A stretch of DNA of 50,070 bases. Source: Gammaproteobacteria bacterium TMED112. GTDB lineage: Bacteria > Pseudomonadota > Gammaproteobacteria > Magnimaribacterales > TMED112. Positions 31,164 to 34,899 of this stretch are shown here, in pieces. The stretch spans positions 31,733-81,802 of the forward strand of contig NHFN02000009.1 of NCBI GenBank assembly GCA_002170245.2, given 5' to 3'. Every line of letters starts with the position of its first letter. Position 1 is the stretch's first letter. The notes beneath the pieces were generated by a model. The model was given only the letters and a program-made list of their open reading frames with translations, had not been told where the DNA came from and ran no database searches. The position numbers and the translations under genes are program-made.

Positions 31164-31706
31164 TTGAGACAACAAAGGCAAAGAAGAAGAAGACCACCTC
31201 AGGCACCTGTAAATAAGTACGTCAAAGCTCAAACTTTGACTGTGATAGACGATAATGGAGAAAAACTCGGTGTGTATAGTAAAGATGATGCTTTGAAAAT
31301 CGCCGAAGAAAAAGGTCTAGATTTACTACAGATAACATTTGAAAAAGAACCTTGTGTGGCCAAAATTCTAGACTACGGAAAACATAAATTCGATCAGAAG
31401 AAAAAACAATCTGCTGCTAAAAAGCATCAAAAAAAAATAGAACAAAAAGAGATTAAAATGCGCCCAAATATCGATACCGGCGATATTAATACTAAACTAA
31501 ATAAAATCGTTGGTTTCATTGAGAAGAATGCCAACGTCAAAATCTCTGTTACCTTTCGTGGAAGAGAGCTTGGAAACACGAGTTTTGGTAAAACTTTACT
31601 TGACAGCATCATCAAAGAAACGGAAGATATTGCATCTGTGTTAGTAGAACCAAAGTTTGAAAATAGAACATACAGCGCACTACTGGCACCAAAGAAAGTA
31701 AAATGA
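31164..31706 (+). CDS. infC: Translation initiation factor IF-3
   Basis: Binds the 30S subunit, prevents premature 50S joining and proofreads the start codon. The 180 residues have a basic arginine-rich N-terminus ([11 protein letters not shown]), the N-domain [19 protein letters not shown], the linker [15 protein letters not shown], and the C-domain [17 protein letters not shown] and [10 protein letters not shown]. The only plausible start is TTG at 31164. In E. coli infC uses the rare AUU, which IF-3 itself discriminates against for autoregulation; a UUG start could serve the same role. The usual upstream thrS is absent. It overlaps rpmI by 4 bases. Confidence 0.96.
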
Positions 31707-31894
31707 GTAAATTAAAGAATCACTCTGGTGCAAAAAAGAGGTTTAAAACTACGGGTTCAGGTCTTAAAATGAGGTCTGCTGGCAGAAACCATATTTTGTC
31801 TAAACATAAGACAAAAAAGAAAAGACACGCCAGAGGAACTTCACATCTTGAGGGTGCGAACCTGAAAGCAGTGAACAAACTATTGGAAGCATAA
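31703..31894 (+). CDS. rpmI: Ribosomal protein bL35
   Basis: Small 50S protein of 63 residues: [20 protein letters not shown] and [16 protein letters not shown] are family signatures. The start overlaps the infC stop (ATGA), and rplT begins one base after its stop. In E. coli L20 represses this operon by binding RNA near rpmI; I cannot identify such a structure by eye. Confidence 0.97.
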
Positions 31895-31895
31895 A

Positions 31896-32243
31896 ATGCC
31901 AAGAACAACAAAAGGAAATTTAGCTGCAAAAAAACATAAGGCTGTTCTAGCAAAAACTAAAGGCCATTATGGTGCTAGATCACGTTTATTTAAGACAGCC
32001 AAACAATCTCTGATTAAATCACTTCAATATGCATATAGAGATAGAAAAAATAGAAAAAGAGATTTTAGAAGACTTTGGATAATAAGAATAAATGCTGAAG
32101 TCAGAAACCTTGGGCACACTTACTCCAAGTTCATTGCTGGGATGAATAAAAAAGGCATAGAACTTGACAGAAAGATGCTGTCAGAGTTAGCTATACAGGA
32201 TAAAGCAGCTTTTGAAAAAGTTGTGAAAACTGCTATAGATTAA
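31896..32243 (+). CDS. rplT: Ribosomal protein bL20
   Basis: Binds 23S rRNA early in 50S assembly. The 115 residues include [40 protein letters not shown] and [18 protein letters not shown], all typical of L20. Full length. Its TAA shares one base with the pheS ATG. Confidence 0.98.
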
Positions 32244-32965
32244 TGTCAAAACCAAAAGAGCTATTCTTACCAAGTCTTGATAGAGAAATCGGGGCTATTC
32301 ATCCAGTAAACAAAGTTAAATTCGATCTCATAAAGCTGCTCACTTCTTTTGGTTTTGAAGTTGCTGAAGGTCCTGAAATTGAGAGTGAAGAATATAATTT
32401 TGATATGCTCAATATCCCTGCAACTCACCCTGCAAGAGAGATGCATGATACTTTTTATGTCGACGATATGAAAAAAGTATTGCGCACCCACACTTCACCA
32501 GTTCAAGTGAGATGTATGCTTGAAAAACAAGGTCCTATGGCCTTTGTTTCACCTGGAAAAGTCTATAGAAAAGATGACGATGCTACGCACTTACCAATGT
32601 TTCATCAAATTGAAGGCATCTTTATTGATGAGAAAGTAAGTTTTGCTCATTTAAAAGATTTAATATATAAAATCTGCCATTCTCTTTTTGGAGAAGACGC
32701 TAAACTGAGATTTAGACCCTCTTACTTTCCTTTTACTGAACCATCTGCAGAGGTCGATGTTTTATTTGGTGACAAATGGTTAGAAATTCTTGGTTGTGGC
32801 ATTGTTAACCCAAAAGTTCTGAAAAATTGTAAAGTCGATTCTAATAAATATTCAGGCTTAGCTTTTGGTCTTGGTATTGAGAGAATAGCGATGCTTAAGT
32901 ATGGGGTAAGCGATATTAGAGATTTTTATAAATCAAACTTAGATTTTTTGAGGCAATTTAAATGA
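32243..32965 (+). CDS. pheS: Phenylalanyl-tRNA synthetase alpha subunit lacking the N-terminal coiled coil
   Basis: Catalytic subunit that charges tRNA-Phe. The 240 residues start directly at the class II catalytic core: HPVNKVKFDLIKLLTSFGFE at residue 20, GPEIESEEYNFDMLNIPATH, motif 2 SPGKVYRKDDDATHLPMFHQ, RPSYFPFTEPSAEVDV, and motif 3 FGLGIERIAMLKYG. E. coli PheS has 327 residues; the missing part is its first ~85 residues, a helical coiled coil that reaches out to the tRNA. An in-frame TGA at 32213-32215 and the overlap of ATG 32243 with the rplT stop leave no room for a longer start. All catalytic motifs are intact. Confidence 0.97.
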   Translation: MSKPKELFLPSLDREIGAIHPVNKVKFDLIKLLTSFGFEVAEGPEIESEEYNFDMLNIPATHPAREMHDTFYVDDMKKVLRTHTSPVQVRCMLEKQGPMAFVSPGKVYRKDDDATHLPMFHQIEGIFIDEKVSFAHLKDLIYKICHSLFGEDAKLRFRPSYFPFTEPSAEVDVLFGDKWLEILGCGIVNPKVLKNCKVDSNKYSGLAFGLGIERIAMLKYGVSDIRDFYKSNLDFLRQFK

Positions 32966-34899
32966 AAATTGTGTACTCACATTTATTGAACTTTTTAGAG
33001 AAGAAACCTTCTATTGAAGAACTATCTGATAAATTATTTCAACTTGGTCACGAGCATGAACTAGAGGGTGAGGTATTTGATTTAGAAATCACACCTAATA
33101 GAGGTGACTGTCTTTCATTAAAAGGTCTTGCTCGAGATCTAAATCATTTCTACTCTGCAAAACTTGATCAAAAAATTTTTGAAGACGAATTACCAGATGC
33201 AAATTTAAAATTTGAAAATAAAGCGGAGAATTTATGTCCAAATATATGTTTTGTGGAAATTGAAATTGAGGGTGAAATAAAGAATTATGCTTCCTACTTA
33301 GAGAACTATTTTAACGACCTCAATTTAAATAAAAACAATTTCTTTACCGATATCTCTAATTATTTGGCCTATGAGTCTGGTCAACCAACACATTGTTACG
33401 ATGCTGAAAAGATTGCTGGCCCTCTAGTTTTAGAAAAAAGAAATAAAAAAGAAGAGTTTAAGACATTATTAGGTACTGAAATAGAACTTGAAGGTGAAAA
33501 TTTAGTTTTTACTGTCAATGGAGTTGCAGTTGACCTAGCTGGGACCATGGGTGATGAAAGCACCTCTTGTAATGAAAAAACGTCTAAAGTACTCGTCGAG
33601 TGTGCCTACTTTAAGCCTGAAGAAATACTTGGTAAAGCAAGAAAATATAATCTAACTTCAGAAGCATCTTATAAGTTTGAAAGGGGAGTAGATTATCTTG
33701 CGCAAGAACAGGTTTTACGTAGATTTATCGCCATTGTTCAAGATCATGTCAAAGTTAAATCTTGTGCCATAAAATCTGAACAAAGAAAAAAAGATTTGTT
33801 AAGTGTCGAATTTAACTCGCAGAAACTTAACAACGTCATAGGCATAGATTTAACAGATGAAGAGCAGCAAGAAATCTTAAAATCACTATATTTCGAAGTT
33901 TCTGGTGATGTCATGGTGCCTCCACATAGGTCAGATGTAGACCAGATAAATGATTTGGCTGAAGAAATAACAAGAATGATTGGATACGATAATATTGCTC
34001 CTAAGGCATTATCCTTGCCAGTAAAAACTAAAACTATTTCTCCAAATTTTGAAACATCATGTCGAAACTATTTGGTCAATTGTGGCTTTTTTGAGGCTAT
34101 CAATTTCCCTTTTAATGATAACGTTGATGAATCAGCAATATCTGTCGATAACCCCTTAGATAAGCAAAGATCGAAAATGCGTGTTTGTATTACAAAATCT
34201 CTCAAGGAGAATGTTGTTTACAATCAAAACAGACAAAAAGATTCCATTAAATTGTTTGAATTCTCAGATATTTATACAAAAGAGGGAAATGAAAGAAAGC
34301 TGTCTGCAATGGTATGCGGAAGGACTAATAAAAACTTTAAAGAATTCAATCAGCAACTGGATTATTCGTACTTGAAGGGATTAATTTGCACAATTTTTGA
34401 AGAGATTCTTGGGGAAAAGCCAAACTTTGAAGAAGGTAAATCAGAAAACTATGATCTCTATGAAAAAGTTTATTTTAAGGGTGGTCAAATTGGCAGAATT
34501 GGTCGATTATCTAAAAACTTCGTTGATTCAAAAGTAAAAACTCCTGTCTTTAGTTTTGAAATATCAATTAATGGTCTGGAAATTTCTGAAAAAAAATACC
34601 AGAAAACCTCGGATTTTCCCGCTTCTTATCGAGATTTATCTTTCAGCCTAGAGGCCCATGATAATTTAAGTGATTTAGCTAATTTGATGATAAAAGTAAG
34701 TGAAGCAAATGATCTAATAACAGACTTTTTTATTTTTGATTTATTTGAAAATAAAAAATTAAACATCTTAAAAGTAGGGTATAGATTTAAATTTCAATCT
34801 ATTGTAAAAAGCTTAACTGATGAAGAGATTGATAAAGTAATGAATTCACTTATAAAAGATGCTCTCTTAATGGATGGCATAAGCATTGAGGGCTTATAG
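32962..34899 (+). CDS. pheT: Phenylalanyl-tRNA synthetase beta subunit lacking the OB-fold tRNA-binding domain
   Basis: Beta subunit with editing and tRNA-recognition modules. It has 645 residues where E. coli PheT has 795. The N-terminal B1 half (about 1-40, [19 protein letters not shown]) runs straight into [20 protein letters not shown]. This skips the EMAP-type OB-fold (B2, PF01588) that normally separates these segments. The B3/B4 editing region is present ([40 protein letters not shown]), as are B5 ([17 protein letters not shown]) and the C-terminal anticodon-binding FDX-ACB domain ([14 protein letters not shown]). It overlaps pheS by 4 bases and metK by one. Confidence 0.96.

Follow-up and report, generated by a model that had tools for sequence, protein, structure and literature searches.

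The phenylalanyl-tRNA synthetases (PheRS) of Escherichia coli (PheST; structures 3pco and 6oz5) and Thermus thermophilus (1pys and 2iy5) are the described systems with which we compare the pheST operon of Gammaproteobacteria bacterium TMED112, found in a stretch of 50,070 nucleotides of contig NHFN02000009.1 that is called the window throughout. PheRS is an elaborate class II synthetase and has been treated as a drug target. In the M. tuberculosis complex every tRNA contacts all four subunits, the N-terminal arm of alpha touching the D- and T-loops and the B8 domain of beta both stacking on and hydrogen-bonding the anticodon (PMC12447630), and in T. thermophilus G34 is hydrogen-bonded by beta Asp729, Ser742 and Arg780 and stacked by Tyr731 (PMC9976931). 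Several reduced forms are known. Crystallised alpha chains of T. thermophilus (2akw, 266 amino acids, aa) and Staphylococcus (2rhq, 294 aa) lack the N-terminal arm partly or wholly and come together with beta, but alpha would there have been shortened for or during crystallisation, and beta is full-length (785-795 aa). The human mitochondrial enzyme (3cmq, 3tup) presumably lacks the coiled coil and B2 and is one chain without the catalytic-like module, B1, B5 and the editing domain, and the archaeal and eukaryotic cytosolic beta chain (3l4g, 8s8b) is presumably also without B2. Roy and Ibba 2006, to judge by its title, reportedly deals with a dispensable RNA-binding domain of PheRS that contributes to editing, which is said to be B2 of E. 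coli; the engineered enzyme is a laboratory deletion of this beta domain in an otherwise full protein. The mitochondrial enzyme has been described as monomeric and minimalist, with an anticodon-binding domain (PMC9976931), a PheT split at the B1/B3 linker has been reported as viable in Mycoplasma pneumoniae, and editing-domain changes have been reported in Mollicutes, for which the PheRS passages of the source mention no losses of the kind described here (PMC4014445). In the TMED112 operon both the coiled-coil arm of alpha and the B2 domain of beta are absent. Nothing resembling a description of this double loss has been found in the passages returned by a literature search on PheRS trimming. 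The natural, doubly trimmed bacterial PheRS is a new variant; the dispensable RNA-binding domain itself is already in print.

The operon and the parts of its products are laid out as follows.

32243..32965, plus strand: pheS, PheRS alpha, catalytic module only, without the N-terminal coiled-coil arm (240 aa)
32962..34899, plus strand: pheT, PheRS beta, without the B2 (EMAP/OB) domain (645 aa)
32962..33060, plus strand: N-terminal half of PheT B1, residues 1-33, with the clade-specific LGHEHE (H30, H32) at its end, from the order alignment and its diagnostic positions
33061..33063, plus strand: approximate junction of the two B1 halves, at which B2 (about 110 residues) is missing (residue 33 aligns with E. 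coli 152)
33298..33747, plus strand: PheT B3/B4 editing domain (PF03483, 134.4 bits)
33805..33987, plus strand: PheT B5 domain (PF03484, 58 bits)
34030..34566, plus strand: PheT catalytic-like module, B6/B7 (PF17759, 85.4 bits)
34609..34860, plus strand: PheT B8 (FDX-ACB) anticodon-binding domain (PF03147, 47.5 bits)
32213..32215, plus strand: in-frame TGA 5' of pheS, read from the sequence, which rules out a longer N-terminus
31164..32243, plus strand: infC-rpmI-rplT, conserved genes 5' of pheST with IF-3, L35 and L20 domains, source of the comparison tree

In a Pfam search the window PheS has matched PF01409 (322.8 bits) as its sole family, the coiled-coil family PF02912 remaining unmatched, and it passes the bacterial PheS model TIGR00468 (309.8 bits, cut-off 237.45) with a match that begins at model position 61. 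In a 110-row PheS alignment with E. coli K-12 none of its residues occupies the columns of E. coli PheS 1-85, and residue 7 aligns with E. coli residue 94. The window PheT exceeds the Pfam cut-offs for PF03483, PF03484, PF17759 and PF03147, and PF01588 (B2, tRNA_bind) has not been matched; in a 111-row PheT alignment with E. coli K-12 its row is empty across E. coli PheT 45-148, and its match to the bacterial PheT model TIGR00472 (407.2 bits, cut-off 402.65) begins at model position 156. B1 (PF18262) has been matched weakly and in its second half only (18.1 bits against a cut-off of 26.8), and both halves align within the order. The alpha subunit thus appears as the catalytic module, and beta as B1 (weakly scored), B3/4, B5, the catalytic-like module and B8, with no B2. 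The first-pass annotation of this DNA had proposed just this, a PheS of 240 residues that begins at the catalytic core and a PheT of 645 residues without B2, and the searches with PF02912 and PF01588 that it suggested have found neither domain in either protein; its statement that the catalytic part remains is borne out at the level of the module by PF01409 and TIGR00468.

We regard it as probable, judging from the sequences, that pheST encodes a functional, essential PheRS of bacterial type reduced to its core, a minimal (alpha-beta)2 enzyme with a reduced and re-tuned grip on its tRNA. The "minimal heterotetramer" suggested previously is the best reading of the parts kept, as a putative quaternary structure, and the (alpha-beta)2 assembly would be retained because only appendages are gone. 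With the enzymes of E. coli and T. thermophilus it shares the operon place behind infC-rpmI-rplT, the catalytic module, a weakly scored B1, B3/4, B5, the catalytic-like module, B8 and the editing residues, and it differs from them in lacking the coiled coil (E. coli PheS 1-85), B2 (PheT 45-148) and the counterparts of the B8 residues Ser742 and Arg780. Compared with the engineered E. coli enzyme, in which the same beta domain (B2, as it is reported) is absent, the loss of B2 is here natural and extends over the whole order and 11 other families, part of the order being also without the coiled coil. The archaeal-type beta model TIGR00471 is failed by PheT (70.9 bits, cut-off 282.65), and the mitochondrial model TIGR00469 by PheS (141.9 bits, cut-off 258.35), catalytic and anticodon domains lying on two genes in the window, unlike in the human mitochondrial enzyme. 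Three PheT of short-PheS genomes in family f3 (L016, L022, L023; here f and g codes denote families and genera of the surveyed genomes, and G and L are genome and locus handles) are without a further stretch of ~25 residues within the C-terminal part of the catalytic-like module, which is kept by the window and by f4.

Trivial causes of the short frames have been considered at the locus itself. Between the TGA at 32213-32215 and position 32243 the window sequence holds zero in-frame ATG, GTG or TTG codons, and the stop-to-stop frame of pheS amounts to 249 aa; a missed start or a sequencing error is excluded by this TGA and by the same frames in many genomes, in agreement with the earlier statement that no start had been missed. 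An assembly error, which had been named beforehand as a possible explanation, is excluded as well, since 39 genomes share the short PheS and 47 the short PheT. The pheST genes lie directly behind infC-rpmI-rplT, and the one-base overlaps reported for the operon hold for rplT/pheS and pheT/metK, but not for pheS/pheT, which overlap by 4 bases (ATGA). The G+C content of the window is 32.6%.

The absent domains have also been sought elsewhere in the assembly of the organism (1.02 Mb, 20 contigs, 91.7% complete). It holds one PF01409 gene and one PheT, no PF02912 match above the cut-off (best 12.8 bits) and one PF01588 domain, so that neither the missing domains, for pheST, nor a second full-length pheST has been found in this 91.7%-complete genome. 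The PF01588 domain belongs to an open reading frame (ORF) of 110 aa directly behind metG. At this locus (L032, G000:C16:9047-12328) the methionyl-tRNA synthetase (MetRS) is apparently split, the metG ORF ending at 1461 and the separate 110-aa ORF running from 1462 to 1794. Free-standing domains of the PF01588 type can bind tRNA alone, and one may therefore ask whether the missing domains are supplied in trans, the B2 function, for example, by this detached protein. The presence of a free-standing 110-aa protein speaks for such a supply; against it, the ORF sits directly behind metG and reads, as we take its motif, like the C-terminal domain of MetRS, and no PF02912-like protein has been found in this genome. 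We consider supply in trans very improbable.

The loss of B2 has been found to reach far beyond the window. A search with the window PheT has matched 51 of 61 genomes (its own and 60 relatives), and a complete frame is present in 47 of the 51, all of 633-699 aa, the other four being cut or fragmentary; B2 loss is order-wide in the material sampled (47/47 complete frames below 700 aa). In a sample of the class, PheT has been matched in 364 of 370 genomes, of which 69 (10 of the order, 59 others) were followed row by row, some 150 top-ranking ones were inspected as rows, and those of middle rank were judged by E-value only. Among the genomes followed row by row, B2-less PheT has been observed in 18 from 11 other gammaproteobacterial families, the main match starting at model position 147-160, and this number, for the 365 genomes sampled beyond the order, is a minimum. 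Seventeen of the 18 carry 0-20 residues in the B2 columns of the alignment, versus 100-109 in full proteins, and the eighteenth, G380, has been read by eye. Two of these frames are longer, in G228 by a frame open upstream and in G294 by an unrelated low-complexity stretch (L219, G294:C52, 752 aa, rich in Asn, Asp and Glu near the N-terminus). G380 (f162) carries pheS and pheT on separate contigs (L220, G380:C11; L221, G380:C39), neither at a contig end, and its operon is thus split. Legionellales bacterium nzgw544 (675 aa) has the only complete PheT frame below 700 aa among the 80 matches listed of 586. On a quick tree of 109 rows, built without a mixture model so that its stars merit less trust, the B2 state changes at least six times, four of them forced by starred branches; G147, for example, is without B2, unlike its sister rows from the same family (0.953). 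A survey of the phylum (348 genomes, 345 matched) has given no clear B2-less PheT outside the class, with 16 low scorers and non-matchers followed up together with four members of the order, the remainder being assessed by E-value or from the rows listed. In the course of these surveys a full PheT divided over two contigs has been seen in G492, and in G497:C20:917498-918469 of the same phylum only model positions 370-694 have been matched (E 6.9e-47) in a 697-aa frame, a very divergent or foreign beta subunit; two loci of f111 (G167:C7:57697-60081 and G366:C44:1643-4027) show an open PheT frame of 1117 aa, about 300 aa above the usual.

The coiled coil has a much narrower pattern of absence. 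We have matched pheS in 100 of 116 genomes of the order, with 39 short (open frame 239-262 aa), 57 full-length (324-346 aa) and four uninformative (two cut or broken, one partial, one spurious). Short PheS occurs in seven genera, g1 of f1 and g3, g6, g9, g10, g287 and g288 of f3, full-length PheS in f2, f4 and g13, g15 and g289 of f3, and no genus holds both forms. PF02912 is present in 358 of the 370 class genomes, and the 12 without it comprise three members of the order, eight in which no pheS was found (seven without a PF01409 match, one with a weak spurious match only) and one with pheS cut by a contig end; short PheS has not been found outside the order in this sample. In the alignments, from which PheT below 450 aa and PheS below 225 aa were left out, B2 is absent in 24 of 24 rows with both genes of a short-PheS genome aligned, and in each of the 18 B2-less genomes from other orders the PheS frame is full-length (327-360 aa). 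In this material, absence of the coiled coil is thus always accompanied by absence of B2. As the coiled-coil state changes once on the pheST tree, the view of two appendages gone from one enzyme holds in that both are absent, but the two losses were not simultaneous, that of B2 having come earlier and several times over and that of the coiled coil afterwards and a single time. Calling B2 "tRNA-contacting" was loose wording, its described role being reportedly support of editing. The trimming characterises a clade and is not peculiar to a single genome. Four genomes (G006, G461, G463, G446) have matched neither pheS (TIGR00468) nor pheT; G006 is a single contig of 93% completeness with a spurious PF01409 match only.

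The descent of the short form has been addressed by a careful pheST tree (40 of the 109 concatenated rows, mixture model), in which f1 and short-PheS f3 form one clade (100/100, stem 1.28), and monophyly of f3 is rejected with a log-likelihood (lnL) difference of 206 and an approximately unbiased test probability (p-AU) of 5.7e-119 under the same type of model. In the infC-rpmI-rplT tree, from which the empty rows G293 and G188 are missing, f3 as one clade is preferred (92/90, not starred) with f1 outside, and the grouping of f1 with short-PheS f3 is not rejected (p-AU 0.138), long branches meeting there. Sequence identities point to transfer, since f1 and short-PheS f3 are close in pheST (51.5%, against 54.7% in the ribosomal genes) and short- and long-PheS f3 are far apart in pheST (33.3%) and near in the ribosomal genes (69.5%). 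A single passage of the trimmed operon from one family of the order to another is thus probable, and one loss with one transfer ranks first. What weighs against a transfer is that f1 is fast in the ribosomal genes and that three linked genes make a thin species tree. One loss followed by plain descent, with f1 truly inside f3, ranks second, and we consider it rather unlikely. It agrees with the unrejected grouping in infC-rpmI-rplT and with the fast evolution of f1 there (stem 1.16), where the long branches meet, and is opposed by the preference of the same genes for f3 together and by the pheST distance between f1 and short-PheS f3, which is small versus the ribosomal one (1.73 vs 1.90), pheST distances within groups exceeding the ribosomal ones about threefold. 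A family in GTDB is intended to form a single clade, which also speaks against plain descent if the family codes follow GTDB. Alternatively, f1 and part of f3 may each have lost the coiled coil, in two separate events, the shared pheST features then reflecting convergence and long-branch attraction. This would suit the union of f3 in infC-rpmI-rplT with f1 outside and the published phylogenomics, in which the SAR86 order has four GTDB families branching as ((Suzuki, CHAB-I-7), (Magnimaribacteraceae, RedeBAC7D11)) and those fitting f1 and f3 are separate sister families (PMC11582366), and the pheST test is subject to the pull that its model exerts between long branches. Two losses are nonetheless improbable in view of the strength with which pheST rejects f3 as one clade, and of a pheST identity higher between f1 and short f3 than between short and long f3 despite the close ribosomal genes of the latter.

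The trimmed genes have been found to be under constraint. The ratio of nonsynonymous to synonymous changes (dN/dS) spans 0.013-0.152 over 13 of the 14 pairs of genes compared, the remaining pair yielding no ratio, and the window's own pairs have a dS of 1.9-3.0, near saturation. The counterparts of the E. coli editing-site residues H265, G318 and E334 are kept in 23 of 23 PheT of short-PheS genomes (H144, G197 and E213 in the window); L014, which contains unknown residues, was left out of the counts of editing and clade residues and kept in those of B8. An altered editing site has not been found in these 23 PheT, apart from T354, which is Ser in all of them, and position 319, which is Asp in five, the window included. 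The editing-region motifs and the FDX-ACB domain therefore remain, as had been noted, the latter with PF03147 over its cut-off. A degenerating operon or a non-functional copy, with another enzyme charging tRNA-Phe, would fit the fast evolution of the clade (stem 1.28) and the four genomes without recognisable pheS or pheT, but pheS and pheT are single copies in the organism's genome, short open frames persist in 39 genomes, dN/dS is low in the pairs that give a ratio, the editing residues are kept, and rplT adjoins pheS wherever the fetched stretches reach. Decay is hardly credible on this evidence and already largely refuted.

A further change has been observed in the anticodon pocket of B8. 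The Thermus contacts were placed by matching the T. thermophilus chain and correspond to E. coli D742, S755, R794 and Y744 (R794 by its position in a C-terminal motif). Their places in the window PheT are the following.

34738..34746, plus strand: B8 D593 and F595, which correspond to Thermus Asp729 and Tyr731 (Asp and aromatic kept)
34771..34773, plus strand: B8 K604, in the position of Thermus Ser742 and E. coli S755; the Ser has gone
34888..34890, plus strand: B8 E643, in the position of Thermus Arg780 and E. coli R794; the Arg has gone

Among the 24 PheT of short-PheS genomes the Asp is present in all and the stacking position is Phe or Tyr in all, and the place of Ser is taken in the alignment by Lys in all 24 and that of Arg by Pro (13) or Glu (11). 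The 19 PheT of coiled-coil-bearing members of the order keep Ser in 19 and Arg in 17 (one Lys, one cut), and rows from outside the order keep Ser in 16 of 18 and Arg in 16 of 18 when B2-less, and Ser in 46 of 50 and Arg in 49 of 50 when full. By this alignment, two of the three Thermus residues that hydrogen-bond G34 are gone in all 24 PheT, a feature new here. The substrate has been compared in 22 of 25 searched genomes of the order that gave a tRNA-Phe locus to be read, 13 with short PheS and nine of 12 with the coiled coil (G029 and G036 matched without a locus, G044 gave no match). The two groups show no difference at 72 of 76 positions and differ at 17, 52, 60 and 62. G34, A35, A36, U20 and U59, named as elements of E. 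coli tRNA-Phe (PMC9976931), are kept in 22 of 22, and compensating changes beyond 17, 52:62 and 60 have not been found in the 22 genomes. The enzyme thus appears changed and its tRNA-Phe hardly, because Ser and Arg are lost in 24 of 24 and the tRNA groups differ at four positions only. The altered tRNA-Phe recognition proposed in the first-pass annotation draws support from B8, and not from the tRNA, whose identity elements the comparison it called for has found unchanged.

A likeness to the mitochondrial enzyme, drawn there for the missing coiled coil, stands as an analogy, the PheS staying below the TIGR00469 cut-off. A B8 profile of the short-PheS genomes scores 31.4 bits on human mitochondrial PheRS, 48 on Staphylococcus and 27.5 on E. 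coli. Relative to a control profile the mitochondrial score rises by about 6 bits (31.4 vs 25.6), and that of each bacterial PheT listed in both is about 25-65 bits lower; a mitochondrial-type origin of B8 is not supported by these scores, the pattern reading as drift.

Several observations count against the core-enzyme reading or its B8 part and have to be set beside it. PheT clears TIGR00472 by just 4.6 bits, and B1 stays under its Pfam cut-off (18.1 vs 26.8 bits). In the AlphaFold model of PheT (14 aligned sequences; mean predicted local distance difference test score, pLDDT, 85.3; predicted template modelling score, pTM, 0.58), superposed by VIA-align on T. thermophilus 1pys_B with Z 39 over 618 of 645 residues and a root-mean-square deviation (rmsd) of 17.6, the domains appear recognisable in a single chain and their arrangement is not established, because the rmsd is high and the pTM low; the match to the archaeal and eukaryotic cytosolic beta chains is much weaker (Z 20 vs 39). 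The retention of the catalytic module has been judged at domain level rather than residue by residue. In B8 the Ser place lies beside a two-residue gap, so that Lys replacement versus deletion depends on the alignment, a profile alignment reading a deletion. A long stem (1.28 changes per column) leads to the short-PheS clade, and because of this clade-specific residues are expected even without adaptation; the seven such residues in PheS and 19 in PheT, identified post hoc and uncorrected for shared descent, have not been used as proof of compensation.

With these reservations, charging by the minimal (alpha-beta)2 enzyme would rely on the catalytic module to hold the acceptor end and on B8 to hold the anticodon, with no alpha arm bracing the tRNA elbow, the G34 pocket working through a changed set of residues, and Tyr-tRNA-Phe editing would be kept, perhaps weaker without B2. 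Small-genome streamlining is the likely driver. One may tentatively go further and link the coiled-coil loss to a novel mode of anticodon reading, B8 having shed Ser742 and Arg780 with tRNA-Phe the same, and the self-sufficient minimal PheRS having then replaced a full-alpha operon in another SAR86 family by one transfer, a proposal to which we give somewhat less than an even chance. If true, this would be a mode of tRNA recognition new to bacterial PheRS, and one fixed in bacteria that are abundant in the ocean.

An unchanged tRNA-Phe together with a changed G34 pocket makes a clean prediction. As PheRS is so elaborate, lineages with both losses, with that of B2 only and with none make directly testable which contacts are needed for charging and for editing, and a minimal natural PheRS helps to separate the core from its accessory parts. 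The small marine bacteria that carry it thus provide a natural test of which parts of an essential enzyme are needed.

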